Shown: positions 53,544 to 63,971 of the stretch, in pieces | Position numbering within the stretch: position 1 is the first letter of the stretch | How the letters are laid out: each line of letters starts with the position of its first letter | From: Simiduia agarivorans SA1 = DSM 21679 | Lineage (GTDB): Bacteria; Pseudomonadota; Gammaproteobacteria; Pseudomonadales; Cellvibrionaceae | Length of the DNA stretch: 64,000 nt | Assembly: GCF_000305785.2 (NCBI RefSeq) | Contig: NC_018868.3 | Location: 3,394,270-3,458,269, forward strand | Reading direction: 5' to 3' | Program-made: the position numbers and the translations under genes | The notes under the pieces: generated by a model | Seen by the model: only the letters and a program-made list of their open reading frames with translations | The model's database searches: none | Told to the model about the DNA's origin: nothing

Positions 53544-54164
53544 ATGTGGGTAGACTCCCTAACTGAACTGACGACCGCGGCCACCGATCTGCTGCTGGCG
53601 TTAATGGCGCTGGCCCTGGCGGTGTTTTACCGGCATCACGGCAACTGGAGCCGGGTATTTGGTTTGCTCGCGCTGGGCGCTGGTCTTGGGGCGGTTGCCC
53701 ATGGCCTGGCGCTGCCGGTGGGAGCCATTACAGCCTGTTGGCTGGTGATTTATGCGGCGTTGGCGTTGCTGGTGGCGCAATTCGCCTTGATCGTGATCCA
53801 AGACCTGTGGGGGCCAGCTGCAGTCCGGCGTGCCACCCTGCCTTTGTTGGCGCTGGCCGCAGGTTTCTGGTTGTACACATCATTTGTGGGCGACAGTTTC
53901 CTGCCGTTTATTGTCTATGAGGTGTTGGCCATGGGGTTTGCGCTGGCAGGTTTCAGCTGGCAGGCGTGGCAGAGGCGCGCCGGCGCCGGCTGGCTGGTGT
54001 TGGGCGTACTGCTTACGCTTGTGGCCGCTGCCGTGCAAGCGTTAAAACTATTCACCTTCACGTTGATCTGGCCGTTCGACCACAACGGCGTCTACCACCT
54101 GATTCAGATGGTAGCGCTGGTGCCTTTCTGGTTGGGGGTGCGGCGCTTACCAGTGCAGAGGTAA
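53544..54164 (+). CDS. Multi-pass membrane protein of unknown function
   Basis: 206 residues, almost wholly hydrophobic with about seven membrane segments (ATDLLLALMALALAVFY, VFGLLALGAGLGAVAHGLAL, LVIYAALALLVAQFALIVI, ATLPLLALAAGFWLYTSFV and others). The layout resembles DUF6962-type proteins, but the family call is uncertain. The 3' end overlaps the DUF6482 gene on the other strand by 18 bp. There is no clear partner. Confidence 0.7.
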   Translation: MWVDSLTELTTAATDLLLALMALALAVFYRHHGNWSRVFGLLALGAGLGAVAHGLALPVGAITACWLVIYAALALLVAQFALIVIQDLWGPAAVRRATLPLLALAAGFWLYTSFVGDSFLPFIVYEVLAMGFALAGFSWQAWQRRAGAGWLVLGVLLTLVAAAVQALKLFTFTLIWPFDHNGVYHLIQMVALVPFWLGVRRLPVQR

Positions 54165-54437
54165 GGCCGACGCCTGACTTTCGCCCATGCCAATCATCTC
54201 GTCATAGGCCATGTGATGCACCAGTTTGGCCTCGGTGACAGTGACGTCGGCCAGGCTCGTGCGCATGGCTTCTAAGCTGCGGGTCATCAGGTTTTCCCCC
54301 TGGCCATTGCAGATGATGCCTTCGGCACCGTCGGGCAGGGTGACGCGGGCAGTGTAAATATCGCCCTCGGATGAAAATACCTGTACGGCCACAGGCAGAT
54401 TTTGCTGGGAAAGGTGGTCTACGGAAAAGCGGTTCAT
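54147..54437 (-). CDS. DUF6482-like small protein
   Basis: 96 residues. The pattern LPVAVQVFSSEGDIYTARVTLPDG, GIICNGQGENLMTRSLEAMRTSL and AKLVHHMAYDEMIG matches DUF6482, found in marine gammaproteobacteria and of unknown function. It has no signal or TM. The stop codon overlaps the end of the convergent membrane-protein gene. Confidence 0.75.
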   Translation of the reverse strand: MNRFSVDHLSQQNLPVAVQVFSSEGDIYTARVTLPDGAEGIICNGQGENLMTRSLEAMRTSLADVTVTEAKLVHHMAYDEMIGMGESQASALPLHW

Positions 54438-54492: not shown

Positions 54493-55728
54493 TCAGTAGT
54501 TGGTCCGTCGCCCCAGCCACCAGAGTACCGCAGCTGCGCACACAAACAAACCACTTAACGGCGCCACGCTGCCCATCTGGTTGGCGTCGGCCATGAACTG
54601 GCCCACAAACCAGGTGCCAAGCCCGCCGCCAATCATCACCGACAGGCCATTGTAGAGGCCGCTTCCCTGGGCGATGTTTCGTTCAGGTAACAGATACTGA
54701 ACCATGGCAAATTCGCAGGCGTTGAAGGTGGTGATGAAAAACACTCCGGCGCAGAAGAGCGCCAGTGAAAGCCATAAATCATCGGCACTGAAGGCGCCCG
54801 TTACGCACAGGCCGGCGGCGACAAAGCCAAACGCCGCATTGCGGCCGCGCTTGCCGGTGCGATCGCCCAGCCAGCTGAACAGGGCCAGACCTAACAGTGA
54901 GAACACGTAGGGCAGGGCGGCAATCCAGGTCAGCTGGGCGTAGTCCACGTCGGCCCGGCTGGCGAAGTAGGTGGGCAGCCAGTTGGAAATGCCCAGCGAC
55001 AGCATGTTGTTGAGTATGCCGGCCAGCAACATCAGCGCCACTGAGGGGTGTGCCAGCAGGCGCCAGGGCGCCGGGTCCAGCAGTTTGGGTGGGGTATGAT
55101 CGGATGTCTGGCCGGGGGGCGCGTCCTGTACGTACAGGCTGATCAGCGGCAGGGTAATCAATAAGCCGGCCACCGCCAGGCCGTGAAAGCCGGCGCGCCA
55201 GCCCCAGGCGTCCATGATGGGCACCAGCAGCAGAGGCGCGGTGAGAATGGCGAGGAAAATGCCGGAGATCCAGATGCCATTGGCGCGCGAGCGTTCCTCT
55301 GGTGCAAACCAGCGCTGGGTGAGGGTGTTCATCATTGGGAAATGAATACCCTCTGCTAGCCCCAACAACACCCGGGAGGCCAGAAACAGCACCAGTATCT
55401 GGCTGAACCAGGCGCCCATGGCGGTAAATACCGACCAGAGCACCACAATCAATTGCAGGCTGCGCTTGGCACCAAAGCGCGCGCCCAACGGAGTGAGCAG
55501 GATGTTGGCCGCGCCATAGGCCAGGTAGAACAGGCTCATGAGCAGGCTGCCGTAGTGCTGTTTATCGGCCGTGCTCCAGGCGAATTCTTCGGCAATCAGG
55601 GGCAGGGCCAGACTGATATTGAGCCGGTCCAGATAGCCGATAAACAGGCTCACCATCAATACCCAGGCCAGCCGCCAGCGCCCGGTGGCCGGGGCGTTGG
55701 TGGTGGATGCGCGAGCAGTGTGAGTCAT
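54493..55728 (-). CDS. MFS transporter, anion:cation symporter type
   Basis: 411 residues, 12 membrane segments. MVSLFIGYLDRLNISLALPLIAEEF is the D-R-x-N start of the ACS family, followed by GARFGAKRSLQ (motif A) and GLAEGIHFPMMNTLTQRWFAPEERSRANG. ACS members import organic acids and hydroxy- or amino-acid derivatives. It lies 8 bp after the PLP decarboxylase gene and is probably co-transcribed, so it may import the substrate of the metabolic island at 55-63 kb. Confidence 0.88.
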   Translation of the reverse strand: MTHTARASTTNAPATGRWRLAWVLMVSLFIGYLDRLNISLALPLIAEEFAWSTADKQHYGSLLMSLFYLAYGAANILLTPLGARFGAKRSLQLIVVLWSVFTAMGAWFSQILVLFLASRVLLGLAEGIHFPMMNTLTQRWFAPEERSRANGIWISGIFLAILTAPLLLVPIMDAWGWRAGFHGLAVAGLLITLPLISLYVQDAPPGQTSDHTPPKLLDPAPWRLLAHPSVALMLLAGILNNMLSLGISNWLPTYFASRADVDYAQLTWIAALPYVFSLLGLALFSWLGDRTGKRGRNAAFGFVAAGLCVTGAFSADDLWLSLALFCAGVFFITTFNACEFAMVQYLLPERNIAQGSGLYNGLSVMIGGGLGTWFVGQFMADANQMGSVAPLSGLFVCAAAVLWWLGRRTNY

Positions 55729-55736
55729 ACGCGCGA

Positions 55737-57185
55737 TTATTGCGCGCGGTAGAGGCGATTGACAAATTCTGACAGCAATTTGTCGCGAATCTCATGTGGC
55801 ATCACATTGAGCAGGTTGTTGATTTCGTCCATCCGGCCGGGCAGGGCGCTGCCGTCGGAGCCCAGAAGCCCGGTAAGCTGATCGAACAGGGCGTGGCCGG
55901 CATCGCCCTGGCTTTGCAGCAGGGCGCCGATCTCTTCCGGCATTTCGGTTAGTGAAGGGCCTTGGGCGGCGTCGCGCAGTTGCGCGACCGCGTCCTGCAG
56001 GTCGCGCAGGAAGGCGTCGATGCGCGGCACATTGCCGTTGCCCACGCTCAGGTGGATATTCGCAGGGGAGGGGCCAAAGCCGAACTGGGGTTGAATGTAC
56101 CAGCCCTTGGCTTTCATCACCTCAGACAGGGCAAACACGTCCAGTGTTTTACTGGCAAAGGAAAACAGGTTGGCTTTGGGGTCGCCCAACACGTACAGCT
56201 CAGGGATAGCGGCAATGGCCTCGCGGATCTTCACTGAGGCAGCCTGGGTGCCTTCAACCAGCTTCAGATACCCTTCCTCACCCAGGTGATTCATGATCGC
56301 CCAACAAGCCGCCACGGGGCCGGCACTTTTGGTGGACATGATGGTGGGGTTCACCACCGAGTAGCCGGTCCAGCCGGACCAGGCAAAAATCTGGTGCCGG
56401 CGCATTTTAGCGCCCTGCTTGTAAATGATGGCCGAGGCGCCCTTGGCGGCGTAGCCCCATTTGTGAAAGTCCATGCTGAGCTGGGTAACGCCGGGCACGC
56501 CCAGGTCAAAGTCGGGAATGTCGTAGCCGAGCTTTTTCGCAAACGGCAGGTACATGCCGCCCACGCAGCAATCCACATGGAACAGAATGTCGTGCTTCAG
56601 CGCCAGTTGGCCCAGTTCGGCAATGGGGTCCACCACGCCGTGGGCGTAACCCGGCGCCGAGCCCACCATCATGATGGTATTGGGGGTGATGGCCGCGGCC
56701 ATGGCGGCGGGATCGGCCTTGAAGGTGACCGGGTCCACCGGCACCCGCACCGGTTTGATATCGAAATAATGACAGCCCTTGAAGAAAGACGCGTGCGCGG
56801 TTTCCGGCAACAGCAGCTCTGGTTCGGTGATTTCCGGCTTGTGTTCGCGCATATAGTCGCGCGCGGTTTTGATAGACAGCAGCAGGCTTTCGGTACCACC
56901 GGAGGTGAAGCTGCCCTGGGCCTCCGGGCCACCGTTGACCAGGTCGATGGCCATGGCCAGCACTTCTTTTTCCAATTCCATGGCAGACGGGAAGGTGGTG
57001 GGGTCCAGGCCGTTTTCGGTGATGAAGGCGGTAAAACTGTCTTTCAGCAGTTTCATGGCGGTGTCGCCGGCATCGTACACATAGGCGAATACCCGGCCGT
57101 CGGCCCAGTCCAGATCGTGCTGCTTGCGGCGCTCCAGCTCGTTCAACAGTTCCTGTGGGTTGCGGCCGGTTTTCGGCAATGCCAT
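55737..57185 (-). CDS. PLP-dependent group II decarboxylase / aspartate aminotransferase-fold enzyme
   Basis: 482 residues. The fold-type I PLP site is clear: FTSGGTESLLLSIKTARDY (phosphate loop), HASFFKGCHYF, FHVDCCVGGMYLP with the ring-binding Asp, and SMDFHKWGYAAKGAS with the Schiff-base Lys. This resembles tyrosine/glutamate decarboxylases and sphingosine-1-phosphate lyases. The C-terminal ~80 residues (after SVGNGNVPRIDAF) are an extra helical region. Substrate unknown. It shares an operon with the MFS transporter and is divergent from the aldolase-like gene. Confidence 0.87.
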   Translation of the reverse strand: MALPKTGRNPQELLNELERRKQHDLDWADGRVFAYVYDAGDTAMKLLKDSFTAFITENGLDPTTFPSAMELEKEVLAMAIDLVNGGPEAQGSFTSGGTESLLLSIKTARDYMREHKPEITEPELLLPETAHASFFKGCHYFDIKPVRVPVDPVTFKADPAAMAAAITPNTIMMVGSAPGYAHGVVDPIAELGQLALKHDILFHVDCCVGGMYLPFAKKLGYDIPDFDLGVPGVTQLSMDFHKWGYAAKGASAIIYKQGAKMRRHQIFAWSGWTGYSVVNPTIMSTKSAGPVAACWAIMNHLGEEGYLKLVEGTQAASVKIREAIAAIPELYVLGDPKANLFSFASKTLDVFALSEVMKAKGWYIQPQFGFGPSPANIHLSVGNGNVPRIDAFLRDLQDAVAQLRDAAQGPSLTEMPEEIGALLQSQGDAGHALFDQLTGLLGSDGSALPGRMDEINNLLNVMPHEIRDKLLSEFVNRLYRAQ

Positions 57186-57237
57186 GGGGTGCTCCAGGTT
57201 TTTATATCGGGTGAAAAATGTTCAGCTTTCACTCTAC

Positions 57238-57263
57238 TTTAAATAGTACGAATGTGCAATAAT
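57238..57263. promoter_or_regulatory. Putative operator, copy 1
   Basis: TTTAAATAGTACGAATGTGC followed by AATAAT lies in the divergent promoter between the PLP decarboxylase and the aldolase-like gene. About 19 of 25 positions match the sequence upstream of the aconitase X operon; the shared frame is TTAAAT-N-GTAC-N4-GTGCAA. Confidence 0.5.
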
Positions 57264-57297
57264 TCGTTTGTGACGTTCTGATACAGTGTACGCACCT

Positions 57298-58467
57298 ATG
57301 AGTCCAAACGATGATTTCACCCTTTATCGGCAAGTGTTGCAGCAGCACGGCGATGGCCGGCCAAGATTGCTGCTGGACCTGCAGCGCCTGGGTGCCAATG
57401 CCGATCGGGCCTGCGGCTTGTTTCCCGGGCAGCCCCTGCGCCTGGTGGTGAAGTCGTTGCCGTGCCTGCCGCTGCTGCGTTGGTTGAGTCAGCGCATGGG
57501 CACCCGTCGTTTCATGGTATTTCATTGGCCCTTTCTGCAACAGTTACTGTCGGCTATGCCGGATGCCGATGTGCTACTGGGCAAACCCATGCCGGTGCTG
57601 GTGCTCACGCGTCTGTTGGCGGCCGGCGTCGGTGCCGAGCGGTTGGCGTCGGCGTGTTGGTTGGTAGACTCTGCTGAGCGGATAGACGCCTATGCCGGAT
57701 TTGCCCGGGCGCATGGCCTGCGGCTCAGGGTTGCAGTGGAAGTGGATGTTGGCATGGCCCGGGGCGGTGTCCGGTCACCTTATGAGCTGCAACAGCTGCT
57801 GGCCCGTTGGCCCGAAGCACTCGAGCTTGAGGGCCTGATGGGTTATGACGCCCAGGTTGCAAAAGCGCCTTGGTGGTGGGGCGGCAGTCGGCGCGCCTAC
57901 CGCCAGAGTCAGGACCGCTACAGGGAATTTATCGGGCTGCTGGCGCCGCATCAGCGTCGTTTGCTCAACGGTGCCGGCAGCCCGACGTTGCCGCTGCATG
58001 GAGCAGGCAGTGTGGCAAACGATTTCAGTCTGGGATCCTGTTTGCTTAAACCCACCGATTTTGACCTGCCGCAATTGGCCGTGTTTACGCCGGCGTTGTT
58101 GATTGCCGCACCGGTATTAAAACGCTTGCGGGGTGTGACCTTGCCGTTTGTGGGTCGGTTGGCGTCGCCGTTGGGCGGTCGCGACAGCCTGTTTTTGTAC
58201 GGTGGGCGCTGGATGGCGAAACCTTGTTGGCCGGAGGCGATGGCGACCCAACCCTGGTACGGTCTGAGCTCGAATCAACAGTTAATGACCTTACCCGCAC
58301 AAACGCCTTGCGGCCCCGATGACTATGTCTTTTTCCGGCCCACGCAAAGCGAGGCCGTGATGCTGCAATTTGGCGACCTGTGGGTTTTGAATGAGGACCG
58401 TTCAATGCAAGCCTGGCCGGTGATGAGTAATGAAGTGTCCGAACACCCAGACGTGACGGGAGTCTGA
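57298..58467 (+). CDS. D-threonine-aldolase-like / alanine-racemase-N fold protein
   Basis: 389 residues from the ATG at 57298 (GTG at 57286 adds four). The PLP-barrel start LRLVVKSLPCLPLLRWL contains the expected lysine (VVKS), and VAVEVDVGMARGGVRSPYEL and LEGLMGYDAQVA follow the family order of D-threonine/D-serine aldolases and dehydratases. The C-terminal metal site of that family (HxC/HxD after VGD) is replaced here by FGDLWVLNEDRSMQAWPVM, so a metal-dependent reaction is doubtful. Its stop and the next gene's ATG are directly adjacent. Confidence 0.75.
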   Translation: MSPNDDFTLYRQVLQQHGDGRPRLLLDLQRLGANADRACGLFPGQPLRLVVKSLPCLPLLRWLSQRMGTRRFMVFHWPFLQQLLSAMPDADVLLGKPMPVLVLTRLLAAGVGAERLASACWLVDSAERIDAYAGFARAHGLRLRVAVEVDVGMARGGVRSPYELQQLLARWPEALELEGLMGYDAQVAKAPWWWGGSRRAYRQSQDRYREFIGLLAPHQRRLLNGAGSPTLPLHGAGSVANDFSLGSCLLKPTDFDLPQLAVFTPALLIAAPVLKRLRGVTLPFVGRLASPLGGRDSLFLYGGRWMAKPCWPEAMATQPWYGLSSNQQLMTLPAQTPCGPDDYVFFRPTQSEAVMLQFGDLWVLNEDRSMQAWPVMSNEVSEHPDVTGV

Positions 58468-60879
58468 ATGCGATTTTTATGCCGGCGGTTAGTCCCGTTT
58501 TCCCTGGTGCTTTTGCTGATCCTGATCGGTTGTGTTTACTGGCTGCTGCAGGCGTCACTGTTGCCGCGTCAGTCGACCTTACAGGTCCGGGGAATTTCCA
58601 GCCCCATTGCAATTCGCTTTGATGACTACGCCCGACCCTTTGTGCACGCCGCCAACCTGAAGGATGCTCTGTATGCCCAAGGTGTGTTGCACGCCAGTGA
58701 ACGTTTGTGGCAAATGGAGTTATTGCGTCTGGCCGGCCGTGCAGACTTGCATAGGTTGTTTGATCGCGATGGCTTGGCAACCGATGCCGAGCTCTGGCGC
58801 ATGGGGGTGCCGCAATTAGCTGAGGCATTATCAGTCAACGTGGAGCCCGAGGTGCTCGAGTGGGTGCGGGCCTACGTGCAGGGCATTAACGCCGGACTCG
58901 CCCGTTATGCCGTGCTGCCGCCCGAATTACTGCTGTTAGGTTACCAGCCGGAAGACTGGACTGTTGAGGATGTGTTTGCCGTGGGCGCGATCATTGCGTT
59001 TCAGAGTGGCAATAATTACACCAAAGAATTATTGCGTCTGGCGCTCAGGCACAAGCTAAGCGACGATGACTTTGCGTTATTTTTGGACGACTTTTCCGAT
59101 CGCGCGGATTATCCGTTTGTCATTGCGACTGCCGGCCGGGCGGCAGAGCAGAACGGGGAGGTAATCCCCGGTGAGGTGCCCGCGCACCTGTTCGCGCAGA
59201 CCGCCTTGCTCGATCCCGCCCGCAATCCGCGCTTGCCCCGGGGTGCTTTTGGCAGCAACGGCTGGGTGGTGGCGCCGGCAAAAAGTGCGACGGGCAAACC
59301 GCTGTTTGCGTTTGATTCGCACGACGCGCTGGGACTGCCGAATTTGTTTTACGAGCTGCATTTATTTTTCGGACGGGGCGAACAGATCCGCGGCTGGTCG
59401 GTACCGGGGTTGCCCGGTGTCATCAATGGCTACAACGAAGCCATTGCCTGGGGCTTTACCAATATTGGCGATACTCAGGATCTGTTTATTGAAACCCGGC
59501 ACCCCGAGCAACAGGACACATTTTTATACGACGGCGAGTGGGTTGCCGCGGAGGTGCAGACGCGCACACTCACCTTGGCGGATGGCTCCAGGGTAGCGCA
59601 CACGCGCAAGCTGTCGCGCCACGGACCCCTGATCAGCGAAGATCCGCCTATCAGTTTTGCCTGGACCGGTCATCATCCAGGCGAAAAAGGTTTAGGGGCA
59701 CTATTGGCGATCAATCGCGCCACCGATTGGCAGGGATTCAATCGCGCGGCCGACACCTTGTTGGCGCCCACCCTGAACGCCACTTATGCCGACGTGCACG
59801 GCACCATCGGTTTTCGCACGGCTGGTGTACTGCCCCTGCGCGGCAGGGGGCAGGGTCTATATCCGCAGGATGGCAGCAACGGATCGAACGCCTGGCGTGG
59901 CTGGGTGCCGGTGTCGGCCACGCCCCGATTGGAAAATCCCGCCGAGGGTTTTGTGGCGGCGGCCAATGCTCGGGTTCACGCCGCGGGTGAAATGCCCTTG
60001 GTGTCGGCGGATAACGCCGCGCCCTATCGCATCGCCCGCATTCAGTCGCAGCTGGCGGCAGCGGAGGCCATGACGCCTGCGCGCATGGCCGCGCTGCAAA
60101 TGGATTGGTACGACGGCCAGGCGGCGTGGTTGTTGCCACACCTGTTGCCGTCCTTGTCACCGGAGCACGCGGCCTGGCGTACACGGTTCGCGCAGTGGCT
60201 GAAAAATCCGGTGGCGGCCGCAGACTCGGTGGAAGCTCTGGTGTTCCAGCAGTGGTATCTGTGCCTGGCCGAAACGGTTTTCAAATCGCGACTGGGCGAA
60301 GACTACGATGCCCTGATCAAGCAAAATTATGTGCTCAACCAGGCCCTGGATGTGCTGATTGCCAGCGACCGGCACGCCCAGTGGTGGCAGGGTCAGCGCG
60401 CGCAAACCATTGATCGGGCGTTGGCGCAAGCCCTTGCAATGCTCGAAAAGCAATTGGGCAATAACGTGGCGCAGTGGCGACTGGATCGATTGCAGCGGGC
60501 GCAGGCGCCGCACGAGTTGGCGCAAGCGCTACCGGTGCTGGCCGGCGTGTTGAACGCGCAACCTGCCCCTTGGGGCGGCACGCCGGCAGCGGTGGGCCGG
60601 GCGAATTACCGCTACGACCGACCGTTTCAGGTCCGCAATGGCGCCACTGTGCGGGTAGTGGCAGAATTGGACGCAACCATCCATGCTGCCTCGGTGATGC
60701 CCGGCGGACAATCCGGGCATCCGTTGAGCGATCACTACGCCGATCAATGGCCGCATTGGTTGGCGGGTGATTTGTTACCGATCGTTCGCCCTGCCGATCC
60801 GATTCAGCAGCGCGGCGAAGCCGAGGCCAACGTCGACGGGACAGTTTTTCGCCAACTCATTCTGGAACCTGCGCAATGA
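58468..60879 (+). CDS. Penicillin-acylase-family amide hydrolase
   Basis: 803 residues with an N-terminal membrane anchor or signal (FSLVLLLILIGCVYWLLQA). It is an Ntn-hydrolase precursor: the alpha part (AQGVLHASERLWQMELLR), a linker ending at RGAF-G, and the beta chain with the predicted nucleophile Ser263 in GSNGWVVAP. Later blocks DSHDALGLPN, GVINGYNEAIAWGFTN, and PGGQSGHPLSDHY agree. Strictly, the Ser is preceded by Gly as in acylases. It cleaves an N-acyl amide in the periplasm; the substrate may be an acylated amino acid. It overlaps the next gene by four bases. Confidence 0.88.
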   Translation: MRFLCRRLVPFSLVLLLILIGCVYWLLQASLLPRQSTLQVRGISSPIAIRFDDYARPFVHAANLKDALYAQGVLHASERLWQMELLRLAGRADLHRLFDRDGLATDAELWRMGVPQLAEALSVNVEPEVLEWVRAYVQGINAGLARYAVLPPELLLLGYQPEDWTVEDVFAVGAIIAFQSGNNYTKELLRLALRHKLSDDDFALFLDDFSDRADYPFVIATAGRAAEQNGEVIPGEVPAHLFAQTALLDPARNPRLPRGAFGSNGWVVAPAKSATGKPLFAFDSHDALGLPNLFYELHLFFGRGEQIRGWSVPGLPGVINGYNEAIAWGFTNIGDTQDLFIETRHPEQQDTFLYDGEWVAAEVQTRTLTLADGSRVAHTRKLSRHGPLISEDPPISFAWTGHHPGEKGLGALLAINRATDWQGFNRAADTLLAPTLNATYADVHGTIGFRTAGVLPLRGRGQGLYPQDGSNGSNAWRGWVPVSATPRLENPAEGFVAAANARVHAAGEMPLVSADNAAPYRIARIQSQLAAAEAMTPARMAALQMDWYDGQAAWLLPHLLPSLSPEHAAWRTRFAQWLKNPVAAADSVEALVFQQWYLCLAETVFKSRLGEDYDALIKQNYVLNQALDVLIASDRHAQWWQGQRAQTIDRALAQALAMLEKQLGNNVAQWRLDRLQRAQAPHELAQALPVLAGVLNAQPAPWGGTPAAVGRANYRYDRPFQVRNGATVRVVAELDATIHAASVMPGGQSGHPLSDHYADQWPHWLAGDLLPIVRPADPIQQRGEAEANVDGTVFRQLILEPAQ

Positions 60880-61826
60880 ACGGACAACACATTATCGACG
60901 CCTATGCCCGCATCCAGCATCAGATTCACACAACGCCAGTCATGCATAGCCGTCTGCTCAATGAGCGCTTGGGCTGTGAAGTGATTCTGAAATGTGAAAA
61001 CCTGCAAAAAGTGGGCGCGTTCAAAGCGCGCGGTGCAGCGAATGCCGTATTGCAGCTAACGGAGGCCGAGGCGAGCAAGGGTGTGGCGACCCATTCCTCG
61101 GGCAACCACGGTGCAGCACTCGCCTTTGCCGCGCGCGAACGCGGCATCCCCTGTTGGGTGGTGATGCCGGCGAACGCGCCGCAGGTAAAGAAAGATGCAG
61201 TGGCGGCGTACGGCGCTCAGATCATTGAATGTGAACCCACACTCGCCGCGCGCGAATCAACCTTGGAAAAAACCGTGCAGGCGACCGGTGCGCAATTTAT
61301 TCCGCCCTATGATGACGAACGCATCATTGCCGGTCAGGGCACGGCTGCATTGGAGCTTTATCAGCAACTGGCTGAACAGGGGCAGCCGTTACCGGAATTT
61401 ATACTCGCGCCCGTGGGCGGCGGTGGGCTGTTGGCCGGCACCGCCCTGTACAGCAAATCCGTGGCGCCCGGCGTGACAGTGATAGGCACAGAGCCCAAGG
61501 GTGCCGATGATTGTGCGCGTGGGTTTAACAGCAAACAGCGCGTTACCGACGCCAAGCCGAACACGATCGCTGATGGCTTGCGCACTCTGGTGGGGGAAGC
61601 CAACTTTCCGATTATCTGCGACTATGTGGATGAGGTGCTGACCGTGAGTGAAGCCGCCATAGTGGAGGCCATGACCTTGGTGTGGACCCGCACCAAGCTT
61701 ATTATCGAACCCTCGTCGGCAGTGCCCATTGCGGCCATCCTGGAAAACCCCGCGCGCTTTGCCGGGCGCAGGGTGGCGGTCATTCTCAGCGGCGGTAATG
61801 TGGAGTTGGGGCAGCTACCGTTTTGA
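60876..61826 (+). CDS. Serine/threonine dehydratase-like (3-hydroxyaspartate dehydratase type) enzyme
   Basis: 316 residues, fold-type II PLP enzyme. The PLP Lys is in KVGAFKARGAANAV, the phosphate loop is PVGGGGLLAG, and SSGNHGAALAFAARERG and RTKLIIEPSSAVPIAAI complete the family. The same fold covers serine racemase, threonine dehydratase and 3-hydroxyaspartate dehydratase (BhcB). Beside an aldolase-like protein, a hydroxy-amino-acid substrate is likely. It starts inside the acylase gene (ATGA) and ends a three-gene operon. Confidence 0.85.
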   Translation: MNGQHIIDAYARIQHQIHTTPVMHSRLLNERLGCEVILKCENLQKVGAFKARGAANAVLQLTEAEASKGVATHSSGNHGAALAFAARERGIPCWVVMPANAPQVKKDAVAAYGAQIIECEPTLAARESTLEKTVQATGAQFIPPYDDERIIAGQGTAALELYQQLAEQGQPLPEFILAPVGGGGLLAGTALYSKSVAPGVTVIGTEPKGADDCARGFNSKQRVTDAKPNTIADGLRTLVGEANFPIICDYVDEVLTVSEAAIVEAMTLVWTRTKLIIEPSSAVPIAAILENPARFAGRRVAVILSGGNVELGQLPF

Positions 61827-61873
61827 TTGTCGGCCGCGATCTGTCTTTTGCGCGGTTGTACGGCCAGTGTTCG

Positions 61874-62314
61874 TCAGCTCAACGTCAGTAAGCCCTGGGT
61901 ATCGATAGTAATGGTTTGGCCGGTGGTGAAGTTGGCCTGCGACAGCCCCTCGGGCAATGCGATAATCGGAATCGAACGCTCAAACCACACCGCCGACAGG
62001 GTCACGCCGGACACCAGCAGTGAATCTGCCTCCCCCACAATCAGCCCGGCCGGGCCTATGCCCTGGCTCACCAGGTCGAGCAGTACCAGGCCCGTGTGGG
62101 TGCTGCCAATACAGGAAGGAAATACCAGAATTTTGCCACGGCTTTCGGCGCGGTAAAGCGGGTGATGGCGGTCATGCATGCGTGATTTTTTGCCCGGCAA
62201 TAAATTCGCCGGTTTGCAATGGGCGGCGGTGAAGTTGATGGGCTGATCGGTCACCAGTGCCGGGCCTTTTGCGTTGCCCGCGAGAATGACGCGGCCCTGA
62301 ATTAGGTTGTTCAT
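61874..62314 (-). CDS. Aconitase X small subunit (DUF126, swivel domain)
   Basis: 146 residues. The swivel domain is shown by GRVILAGNAKGPALVTDQPINF, GKILVFPSCIGSTHTGLVLLDLV with the conserved Ser/Gly turn, and SGVTLSAVWFERSIPIIALP. With the large subunit directly upstream (stop TAA joined to ATG) it forms a two-chain aconitase X. Known bacterial members dehydrate cis-3-hydroxy-L-proline and archaeal ones phosphomevalonate; which applies here is unclear. Confidence 0.88.
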   Translation of the reverse strand: MNNLIQGRVILAGNAKGPALVTDQPINFTAAHCKPANLLPGKKSRMHDRHHPLYRAESRGKILVFPSCIGSTHTGLVLLDLVSQGIGPAGLIVGEADSLLVSGVTLSAVWFERSIPIIALPEGLSQANFTTGQTITIDTQGLLTLS

Positions 62315-63484
62315 TTACAGGACTCCGCACACGGCCAGCAACTCAGACAGGTCGCCGTACTCGGTGCCGTCGAGATAGTAATAAAGCTTGCCGGAATTGG
62401 TGAGCACCTGTTGCGAGCCGAGCCCGATGCGCACAGACAGGCCGGCCAGCGGGCAATGCGCATACAATTCGACGCCTGCCTCTAATAGCGCCCGGTGCAT
62501 CGGCAATTTTTCCAAGCGCCGCAGGTCGGCTGGCACAAGATGAAACAGCGTGCGCTTTTTGACTTTTTTACCAACAAAATGTTCGCCGGTCGCCAGCGCT
62601 TCTTCCAGCGTCATTTGCGGGCAGCCAAAGGCAACGATTTTGGATGCGTTCTGTATTTCCTGATTGGCGCGCACCGCGGTTAAATCGGCCTGGGTGATGG
62701 TGATGACCTGTTCCGGTTCGCGTCCCCGAAACGCGGTGGCTTCATCGGGTGCTTCCGGGGTCAGACCCAGCACGTGGAATAACGAGACGCTGCCGCTCGC
62801 AGCCATGGCGCCACCCATGTTTTTCAGCTCGGTGGCTGAGAAAGGGTAGTGATCGAGTACCGGGGTTTTGTCCACGCACCGTTTGCCCAGAATAAAACCG
62901 AGCGCGGCGGCGTCCATCACCTGTATGTCGAGCTTGACGCGGATCTGGCCGGCCCGGTTCTGGTCCAGCAGAAAACCGAATTCCGGCGTAAGACCGGTAA
63001 TGGCCTGACAGATATCCACCAGAATGGAGTTGCGGTTGCTGCGCGCACCGATCACTGAATTGGCGTAAATAATCGCGGAGCTTTCGGCCCAGCCGAGAAT
63101 ATCGCCAAAGCGGGGTATATTGGCCTCGTGGTAACACACGCAGGAATAGTTGGGTGTCACACCCAAGGCTTCCAGGTTCTGCTCGTGTTGTTGTTGGCCA
63201 CGCAATACCAACCGGTTCTGCAGACTGAAATCGTAGCCAGGGCGGGGATTGGCGGTGGTCGGTACTTTTACTTTGAGTCCGGCGGCTACCAGCTTTTCCA
63301 CCACGGCGTAATAGCCTTTGAAGGACGCAATTTTAAAACTGCCGGTAAGGTGCGCGCTCACGATGGGCACCAGCCGGGTGGCACCAAAGGCTTCACCGTA
63401 GCGCACCAGCGTCGCCATGCACTGGGCGAATTCCGGGCCCAGGCTGCCGTCCAGCCAGGCCTGTTGTTTATCGGTGAGTTGCAT
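62315..63484 (-). CDS. Aconitase X catalytic (large) subunit, DUF521
   Basis: 389 residues. Signatures are SAHLTGSFKIASFKGYYA, LGVTPNYSCVCYHEANIPRFGD with conserved cysteines, AESSAIIYANSVIGARSNR, FGCPQMTLEEA and a C-terminal YAHCPLAGLS with another Cys. These cysteines bind the Fe-S or mononuclear iron centre in this family. It is read with the small subunit as a two-gene operon, opposite to the acylase operon, and has a similar upstream motif at 63530. Confidence 0.9.
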   Translation of the reverse strand: MQLTDKQQAWLDGSLGPEFAQCMATLVRYGEAFGATRLVPIVSAHLTGSFKIASFKGYYAVVEKLVAAGLKVKVPTTANPRPGYDFSLQNRLVLRGQQQHEQNLEALGVTPNYSCVCYHEANIPRFGDILGWAESSAIIYANSVIGARSNRNSILVDICQAITGLTPEFGFLLDQNRAGQIRVKLDIQVMDAAALGFILGKRCVDKTPVLDHYPFSATELKNMGGAMAASGSVSLFHVLGLTPEAPDEATAFRGREPEQVITITQADLTAVRANQEIQNASKIVAFGCPQMTLEEALATGEHFVGKKVKKRTLFHLVPADLRRLEKLPMHRALLEAGVELYAHCPLAGLSVRIGLGSQQVLTNSGKLYYYLDGTEYGDLSELLAVCGVL

Positions 63485-63529
63485 TTTGGGTGTCTCGCCG
63501 CCATCTTAGCTGCTGAATAAGCACCATAA

Positions 63530-63556
63530 CTTAAATTGTACTTTAGTGCAAAAAAA
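63530..63556. promoter_or_regulatory. Putative operator, copy 2
   Basis: CTTAAATTGTACTTTAGTGC followed by AAAAAAA lies upstream of the aconitase X operon (46 bp before its ATG). It matches copy 1 at 57238 in TTAAAT-N-GTAC-N4-GTGCAA. It also touches the start of the divergent small membrane protein gene. Confidence 0.5.
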
Positions 63557-63572: not shown

Positions 63573-63971
63573 ATGAAATGGATGCAAACGCTTCAGGCCG
63601 GGATCCGGACCCCGGGTTTCTGGCGCCGGGCAGCGCTTTGGGCGCTGTTGTTGTGTCTGGCGCCCTTTGCCATTGAGATCATCATCATGGCGGACCTGAT
63701 AGGCATTGAGCTGGCCATGGCGTTTGTGGCTTATTGGGGCCGGGATCTTTGGGCCCAGTGGCTGACGCGTTGGGACCGGTGGGTGGCATTCTGTCACGAA
63801 TCTTGTCTGATCCTGGCCAGTCACTGCCAGTTTGAGCGGCGCAATTTCCTGGTGTTGTGCGGCTTCAGCGTTGCGTTGGTCGTTCTGGGTTCACCGCTGC
63901 TGGCCTCTGCAGGCTGGTTGCCAATGATGGTGTTGGCGCCTGATTTGTCCCCTTTCACAGGATTCAGTTGA
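63573..63971 (+). CDS. Small membrane protein of unknown function
   Basis: 132 residues from the ATG at 63573 (GTG at 63546 would add nine). Two to three membrane segments: ALWALLLCLAPFAIEIIIMADLIGIEL, and FLVLCGFSVALVVLGSPLLA. A central RDLWAQWLTRWDRW aromatic stretch is cytoplasmic. No family is recognised. Its stop overlaps the ATG of the next gene (TGATG), so the two are co-translated. Confidence 0.68.
   Translation: MKWMQTLQAGIRTPGFWRRAALWALLLCLAPFAIEIIIMADLIGIELAMAFVAYWGRDLWAQWLTRWDRWVAFCHESCLILASHCQFERRNFLVLCGFSVALVVLGSPLLASAGWLPMMVLAPDLSPFTGFS

Follow-up and report, generated by a model that had tools for sequence, protein, structure and literature searches.

A conserved operator marks a candidate catabolic regulon for N-acylated 2-amino-3-hydroxy compounds in Simiduia agarivorans

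Overview of the locus

What substrate could bring an importer, a hydrolase, lyase-like enzymes and an aconitase X under one operator? The question is raised by stretch 54493–63556 of the window, that is, of the 64 kb of DNA analysed here from the single-contig genome (4,300,227 bases) of Simiduia agarivorans SA1. Judged from spacing and strand, the stretch comprises three operons: operon 1 on the minus strand encodes a carrier and a lyase and diverges from operon 2 on the plus strand, which encodes a D-threonine-aldolase-like protein, a penicillin-acylase-type hydrolase and a dehydratase, while operon 3, on the minus strand, encodes a two-subunit aconitase X. We propose, with a probability of about 0.42, that this region represents the local portion of an accessory regulon, probably repressed by TetR, which breaks down an N-acylated 2-amino-3-hydroxy compound, the likeliest candidate being a sphingoid-type aminolipid of ceramide- or sulfonolipid-like kind. 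Taken by itself, assignment of the substrate to the N-acyl 2-amino-3-hydroxy compounds is rather likely, and we regard it as practically certain that the regulon and its operator are real.

The genes named by a first-pass annotation of this DNA are all present where it placed them, and its family assignments stand with two exceptions: the supposed pyridoxal 5'-phosphate (PLP) decarboxylase is a homologue of sphingosine 1-phosphate (S1P) lyase, and the supposed hydroxyaspartate dehydratase scores below the cut-offs and belongs to the resident genes of this locus.

A palindromic operator shared with related loci

Two operator copies are present in the window. Copy 1, TAGTACGAATGTGCAA, occupies 57244–57259 between the two divergent operons and has one mismatch to the palindrome TTGYAC-N4-GTRCAA, and copy 2, TTGTACTTTAGTGCAA, at 63536–63551, matches it exactly and lies 51 bp ahead of the aconitase X large-subunit start codon. 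The motif first proposed for both outer promoters, TTAAAT-N-GTAC-N4-GTGCAA, does have two exact copies, at 57239–57259 and 63531–63551, but their starts had been given one base too low and the register was off: the conserved form is the palindrome TTGTAC-N4-GTACAA (TTGYAC-N4-GTRCAA when written degenerately), and TTAAAT stands to its left in none of the 16 sites in relatives. At up to three mismatches the longer motif is expected 0.33 times in shuffled sequence, with at least two occurrences in 5 of 100 shuffles, a count that is no independent test because the pattern was derived from its own two sites.

Related loci were collected through aconitase X, for which 80 of 448 places in genome contigs encoding a relative were retained and the 21 best (L043–L063) analysed for cluster genes; L159 and L170 were added by lyase searches. 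The relative loci are L043–L048, L159 and L170, and the comparison group combines further aconitase X loci with four loci that encode more distant homologues of the lyase. These groups were set by gene content, yet after a first set of sites was already known; L049 of a Woeseiaceae member, which has a thiamine diphosphate (ThDP) enzyme and aconitase X and carries no site, was placed in the comparison, and L160–L163 (75 kb; lyase and carrier), which have no site at up to one mismatch, are in neither group. The degenerate palindrome occurs in nine exact copies in 147,417 bp of the eight relative loci (shuffle mean 0.02, maximum 1) versus none in 266,293 bp of the 16 comparison loci (shuffle mean 0.035). 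With up to one mismatch allowed, the relative loci contain 16 copies (shuffle mean 0.78, maximum 3) and the comparison loci 4 (shuffle mean 1.3, maximum 5).

In the eight relative loci the sites stand in the promoters of a common set of genes. They lie upstream of aconitase X in L043 and L044, between TetR and lyase in L043 and L045, between aminotransferase and ThDP enzyme in L046 and L047, and between TetR and a TonB receptor in L048 and L159. Additional sites precede the lyase and the D-threonine-aldolase-like gene in L047, the ThDP enzyme in L048, the D-threonine-aldolase-like gene in L159, and both TetR and the TonB receptor in L170. The earlier proposal that the operons share an operator and belong together is thereby borne out, as the motif is conserved in relatives and the operons are linked. 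In the genome of S. agarivorans itself, the core palindrome has 19 matches at up to one mismatch, including a single exact copy, compared with 10 for a reversed control; the palindrome alone is unspecific there and constitutes weak evidence, and it is the relatives that decide. A scan for sigma-70-type promoters at the two window operators found none.

A recurring core gene set with variable partners

TetR, carrier, lyase and hydrolase form the core set of the eight relative loci, five of which also encode the D-threonine-aldolase-like protein; the presence of aconitase X, TonB receptor, ThDP enzyme, aminotransferase and aldehyde dehydrogenase varies between loci. Loci L043–L048 were found through aconitase X, and its frequency there reflects this selection. 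The hydrolase and D-threonine-aldolase-like genes are convergent to aconitase X in L043, L045, L047 and L048; lyase and carrier are linked in the first three of these, and in L048 the lyase lies at the end of the stretch read. The L044 stretch stops inside the hydrolase gene, and L046 of Ferrimonas marina (21 kb) contains a ThDP enzyme, an aminotransferase and aconitase X, with a D-threonine-aldolase-like protein also encoded elsewhere on a contig of that organism. In L159, TetR is divergent to a TonB receptor–lyase–carrier series, with the D-threonine-aldolase-like and hydrolase genes past TetR, and L170 combines a hydrolase–TetR pair, an aldehyde dehydrogenase, an aminotransferase and again TonB receptor–lyase–carrier. 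The carrier adjoins the lyase in L043, L045, L047, L159–L163 and L170; by eye, the neighbours of this pair in L160 and L163 resemble histidine-utilisation genes. Hydrolase, lyase and carrier thus co-occur in altered order and strand in L043, L045, L047, L159 and L170, accompanied by the D-threonine-aldolase-like gene in the first four, and because they stay linked despite these rearrangements they would belong to one pathway.

Six of the eight loci have a linked TetR regulator; these regulators belong to one family, with 36–90% pairwise identity among five compared and 53% between those of L170 and L045. TonB receptors are found in L048, L159 and L170, those of L048 and L159 being 59% identical; L043 and L044 have at their far end a partial receptor gene (39–42% over some 190 residues) that may or may not belong. 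The ThDP enzyme lies directly upstream of aconitase X in L046–L049, and Xsc (sulfoacetaldehyde acetyltransferase) is not among the best 25 of the 49 models listed for it. An AMP ligase adjoining the carrier in L047 has a fatty acid-CoA (coenzyme A) ligase as its closest model (342 of 950 bits). The class III aminotransferases match the omega-aminotransferase AptA model in L047 (650 of 500) and a general model in L170 (582 of 517).

The gene set recurs in bacteria from several families, with a scattered and accessory distribution. Among 145 genomes of the order, own genome included, the aconitase X large subunit is found at E 1e-30 in eight, namely the own genome and seven others at 27–35% identity, and among 369 genomes of the class it matches only the own genome at E 1e-90. 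Homologues of the D-threonine-aldolase-like protein occur in 28 of the 145 order genomes, own included, and the flanks of the 27 other loci, about 1.5 kb, contain no further cluster gene. At five of the seven such loci read outside the cluster (L016, L018, L021, L022, L024), the gene adjoins a flavin adenine dinucleotide (FAD) enzyme gene that looks alditol-oxidase-like by eye.

The lyase and its companion proteins

The lyase (55737–57185, minus strand) is an S1P-lyase-like PLP enzyme with a changed phosphate pocket. It scores 297 bits to StSPL, the S1P lyase of Symbiobacterium (3mad), over residues 3–405 and 101 bits to MfnA, and on this far better StSPL score an aspartate or tyrosine decarboxylase was rejected. 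The PLP lysine (StSPL K311) is kept, with DFHKWGYAAKG aligned to DTHKYGYGAKG. In StSPL the substrate phosphate is held by Y105, A103, N126, H129 and K317 (PMC6148460, Table 3), positions at which the window lyase has Tyr, Tyr, Asn, Asp and Lys, a combination that departs from the S1P pocket. The Tyr at A103 and the Asp at H129 are identical in eight of eight aligned members of the pathway clade, and in three second-clade sequences these positions are Leu and Asn. The pocket is not rigid, in that some true lyases described in PMC6148460 have Thr for A103 and Gln for H129. Judging from these residues, the head group of the substrate is probably not a phosphate, and the lyase points to 2-amino-3-hydroxy compounds of sphingoid kind. 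It shares with the S1P lyases StSPL, SGPL1 and Dpl1p the sequence family, the PLP lysine, Tyr105, Asn126 and Lys317, but differs at A103 and H129 and in being encoded beside an importer and, in relatives, mostly also beside an acylase and TetR. The second-clade genes (L164, L165, L166) adjoin, by eye, a gene for a DUF819-like membrane protein; a similar DUF819-like gene, together with the alditol-oxidase-like FAD gene, adjoins the D-threonine-aldolase-like gene of L018.

The second gene of the lyase operon (54493–55728, minus strand) encodes a major facilitator superfamily (MFS) importer of ACS (organic anion) type (PF07690, 176 bits; TIGR00893, 140 bits, below its cut-off of 395).

Across the divergent promoter region, the first gene of operon 2 (57298–58467, plus strand; PF01168) encodes a PLP protein that alignment and predicted structure assign to the D-threonine-aldolase/alanine-racemase fold. 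The model has a mean predicted local distance difference test score (pLDDT) of 92 and a template modelling (TM) score of 0.72 to D-threonine aldolase 4v15 at 18% identity; alanine racemases score almost equally, and a hydroxyaspartate aldolase and dehydratase are among the best structural matches. The PLP lysine K52 is invariant. The metal-ligand pair is absent and is replaced by an RPTQSE motif. All 30 of the 30 aligned sequences share its Q350 and E352, which we take, from motif spacing and not from superposition, to be the counterparts of H351 and C353 of D-threo-3-hydroxyaspartate dehydratase.

The adjoining gene (58468–60879, plus strand) encodes the penicillin-acylase-type N-terminal nucleophile (Ntn) hydrolase (PF01804, 579 bits), which has an N-terminal hydrophobic segment in its sequence and whose nearest solved acylase is D-succinylase. 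Its nucleophile is probably Ser263, as the beta chains of solved relatives begin at residue 263 and FGSNGW is present in six of the seven sequences checked.

An aconitase X outside the characterised types

Aconitase X consists of a small subunit (61874–62314; PF01989, 58 bits), with a GSTHTG loop common to the aligned cluster relatives, and a large subunit (62315–63484; PF04412, 327 bits), both on the minus strand. Its nearest solved relatives are 7cnr (153.5 bits), the mevalonate-5-phosphate dehydratase of Thermococcus (PMC8184944), and cis-3-hydroxyproline dehydratase (113 bits). The superfamily residues align: the Fe-S cysteines C115 and C288 and the catalytic E134, S135 and K366 are kept, and C344 is invariant in alignment A1 but falls one column off AtAcnX C508. 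The substrate landmarks follow neither known enzyme. Those of the cis-3-hydroxyproline type are replaced by Thr, His, Thr and Phe, and NF051439 scores 171 bits against a cut-off of 700. Those of the mevalonate 5-phosphate type (TkAcnX A47, the V49/S50 loop and N53 in the large subunit, and V64 in the small subunit, the last placed through the AtAcnX alignment and PMC8184944) are replaced by Thr, a loop one residue shorter, Ile and His, with Asn79 kept. The protein thus shares the two-domain or two-subunit make-up and the catalytic residues of known aconitase X enzymes but neither of their landmark sets, and it fits the bacterial types IIc–IIf, described in PMC8184944 as uncharacterised and devoid of landmark residues, with no single type assignable.

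Three aconitase X relatives are found in other settings, with all named matches below cut-off. In a Spirochaetes metagenome-assembled genome (MAG; L056:1593–8506), an aconitase X relative forms an apparent operon with KAS III-like, OleD-like (2-alkyl-3-oxoalkanoate reductase) and BaiCD/OYE-type genes, in a Dadabacteria MAG (L061:1–2275) it is accompanied by an OleD-like gene, and in a Bacillota MAG (L063:10001–13609) by a BaiCD/OYE-type gene. These arrangements suggest a CoA-free route from beta-hydroxy acid through 2-enoate to saturated acid. Dehydration of free beta-hydroxy acids, if true, would be the first function for an uncharacterised bacterial aconitase X.

The dehydratase as a resident gene

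The dehydratase (60876–61826, plus strand; PF00291, 272 bits) overlaps the hydrolase gene by 4 bases and falls below the cut-offs for both BhcB (411 of 550) and threo-3-hydroxyaspartate ammonia-lyase (338 of 452). In three of three congeners it neighbours DUF6962, at 64–66% identity to the window gene, with a 118-residue open reading frame (ORF) between the two in one of them. In two of the three it is followed by a homologue of 63573–63971, directly or after one SDR-like gene, and in all three a gene taken for YaiI/DUF188 lies downstream, whose start also appears at the end of the window. No lyase is found in these congeners at E 1e-40, and no other cluster gene in the stretches of 4–4.5 kb, no genome-wide search for hydrolase or aconitase X having been made. 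Because the gene resides at a locus without the cluster in all three congeners, it likely stands outside the pathway: by descent it is probably a bystander, though the 4-base overlap means that it may be co-transcribed with the hydrolase. The catabolic genes of the window flank this resident gene on both sides; loss in the congeners is also possible.

Candidate regulators in this genome

Two TetR homologues of the own genome are candidate binders of the operator. The better one, at 84553–85176, is 39% identical to the TetR of L045 and 48% to that of L159 and adjoins a patatin-like gene, before which lies the only operator near it, with two mismatches. The second, at 1674627–1675268 (29–30%), adjoins a TonB receptor gene with a one-mismatch operator. 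This receptor (1675561–1678164) was considered as the missing cluster receptor and rejected as no orthologue, since it is only 27–30% identical, over partial length, to the L048 and L159 receptors. The nearest own ThDP enzyme (1551392–1553119, 59% identity) was likewise rejected as a regulon member, with no operator at up to one mismatch within 14 kb; by eye, there is a class III aminotransferase-like gene some 6 kb away from it (L145, own genome 1546000–1560000).

Proposed pathway and competing explanations

Known relatives of the lyase, the D-threonine-aldolase-fold protein and aconitase X act on carbon chains in which a hydroxylated carbon adjoins an amino or carboxyl group, and members of the hydrolase family are amide-cleaving enzymes. 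A substrate R-CH(OH)-CH(NH-acyl)-R' would explain hydrolase, carrier and lyase together. From the gene set, linkage, operator, families and residues read in the sequence we infer the reactions, their order, the lipid nature of the substrate, the regulator and repression as follows. In some relatives, a TonB receptor would take the substrate across the outer membrane, after which the Ntn hydrolase, presumably exported, would strip the N-acyl group and the MFS carrier would import the freed amine. The S1P-lyase-like enzyme would then cleave C2–C3 in a retro-aldol reaction, yielding an aldehyde and a short amine that, in some relatives, aldehyde dehydrogenase and omega-aminotransferase may process. 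Aconitase X could convert a free beta-hydroxy acid, such as a 3-hydroxy fatty acid from the deacylation, to a 2-enoate, and the D-threonine-aldolase-fold protein probably acts on an oxidised form, either as a second PLP lyase or as a racemase. TetR, bound at TTGTAC-N4-GTACAA, would silence the genes when substrate is lacking.

A sphingoid lipid is favoured because of the lyase homology and, as weak hints, the fatty acid-CoA-ligase-like gene of L047 and the aconitase X neighbours in L056, L061 and L063. Some sphingo- and sulfonolipids of Bacteroidota, such as sulfobacin A, bear amide-linked 3-hydroxy fatty acids, which are a possible aconitase X substrate, and C1 oxidation of a natural sphingoid base would yield a D-amino acid, the configuration used by D-threonine aldolases. 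The more specific proposal of a dedicated pathway, in which a re-tooled S1P lyase splits unphosphorylated or otherwise substituted sphingoid bases and aconitase X dehydrates free beta-hydroxy fatty acids without CoA, is improbable. The titles and abstract openings of the literature yielded no description of this cluster and no degradation route for bacterial sulfonolipids; this, together with the aconitase X types IIc–IIf described without function in PMC8184944, gives the regulon its interest. The gene set is carried by cultured organisms (Ferrimonas marina, Paraferrimonas sedimenticola and probably Microbulbifer marinus), making its function directly testable.

Several observations weigh against a sphingoid regulon of this composition. 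At the level of gene content, L046 has no lyase within 10 kb, the stretches read of L159 and L170 contain no aconitase X, and in L160–L163, which come from a single genus of the same family, the lyase–carrier pair lacks operator, TetR, hydrolase and aconitase X. The window itself has neither a TetR gene nor a linked TonB receptor, and the TetR at 84553–85176 has no operator at up to one mismatch within the surrounding 10 kb. At the level of chemistry, an ACS organic-anion carrier is odd for a lipid amine unless that amine is sulfonated or carboxylated, and an anionic head group should be unfavourable next to the Asp that replaces His129 in the lyase, so that the case for a sulfonolipid is weakened. 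The OleD-like matches beside the aconitase X relatives reach only 181–230 of 580, and the KAS III there is not specifically OleA. Furthermore, the aldehyde dehydrogenases of L047 and L170 have succinate-semialdehyde dehydrogenase as their best model (489 of 730; TIGR01780 672, above its cut-off of 646) and that of L048 the benzaldehyde dehydrogenase MdlD (397 of 550), so that, with the aminotransferases, they would fit a short semialdehyde or omega-amino product or an aromatic substrate equally well. As these models are not fatty-aldehyde models, the sphingoid proposal is graded lower and the principal competitor higher.

That competitor is a small polar N-acyl beta-hydroxy amino acid, hydroxyaspartate-, hydroxyproline- or phenylserine-like, which would be deacylated, imported, cleaved by aldol reaction or dehydrated to a 2-oxo acid and decarboxylated by the ThDP enzyme. 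We consider it unlikely: the ACS-type carrier, the D-threonine-aldolase fold with its hydroxyaspartate-type structural matches, the ThDP enzyme directly upstream of aconitase X, the semialdehyde- and benzaldehyde-dehydrogenase-like neighbours just named and the known action of aconitase X on cis-3-hydroxyproline all suit it, but the dehydratase that it would use sits at congener loci without the cluster, the BhcB and BhcC cut-offs are unmet, aconitase X lacks the hydroxyproline-binding landmarks and the lyase is of the sphingosine-lyase kind. The route first suggested for the locus was of this polar type; its outline, in which a beta-hydroxy amine is deacylated, taken up and split by aldol cleavage, remains good, and its passage through the dehydratase and hydroxyaspartate or hydroxyproline enzymes is not supported, on account of the resident dehydratase, the aconitase X residues and, for the D-threonine-aldolase-like protein, a score of 22 bits against the BhcC cut-off of 690 and the replaced metal pair. 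With the beta-hydroxyaspartate cycle (BhcABCD) the window cluster shares a D-threonine-aldolase-fold and a hydroxyaspartate-dehydratase-like protein in one operon, but its dehydratase is resident and it lacks a transaminase and an imine reductase.

That the genes inactivate or exploit an N-acyl signal, antibiotic or acylated siderophore, with the hydrolase removing the acyl chain and the other proteins salvaging the core, is quite improbable. The hydrolase family includes N-acyl-homoserine lactone and pyoverdine acylases (PvdQ model, 31 of 950 bits), and the L159 receptor, one of the three linked TonB receptors, has a siderophore-receptor model as its best NCBIfam match (170, cut-off 223.5); the nearest solved acylase, however, is D-succinylase, lyase and carrier with the aminotransferase and aldehyde dehydrogenase of some relatives make up a carbon-use route, and the linked regulator is TetR, no search for Fur sites having been made. 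Still less probable is synthesis or remodelling of an own aminolipid in place of breakdown of an external one. Such a role would accord with the seemingly biosynthetic operon around the L056 aconitase X relative, yet a hydrolase with an N-terminal hydrophobic segment, an importer and a TonB receptor in one regulon argue against it, as does the scattered accessory distribution, no search for serine palmitoyltransferase or acyltransferase genes having been made. Finally, it is scarcely credible that unrelated adjacent operons carry chance copies of the motif: although the core motif is only about twice as frequent as its control in the own genome and the dehydratase occurs at congener loci without the rest, the operator statistics and the conserved co-occurrence in relatives contradict this.

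A functional parallel to the proposed sphingoid regulon exists in the sphingosine response of Pseudomonas aeruginosa, whose regulator SphR we take to be of AraC type. Both are bacterial regulons around deacylation, of sphingolipids in P. aeruginosa as described in PMC5150637, but there SphR controls a ceramidase, whereas here TetR is linked to a penicillin-acylase-type hydrolase; the two were compared by description only.

Neighbouring features of the window

A DUF6482 gene (window 54147–54437) lies between DUF6962 and the carrier gene and is missing from the ORF lists of the interval from DUF6962 to the dehydratase in the three congeners. The block has a G+C content of 59.8%, compared with 56.5% in the first 54 kb of the window.

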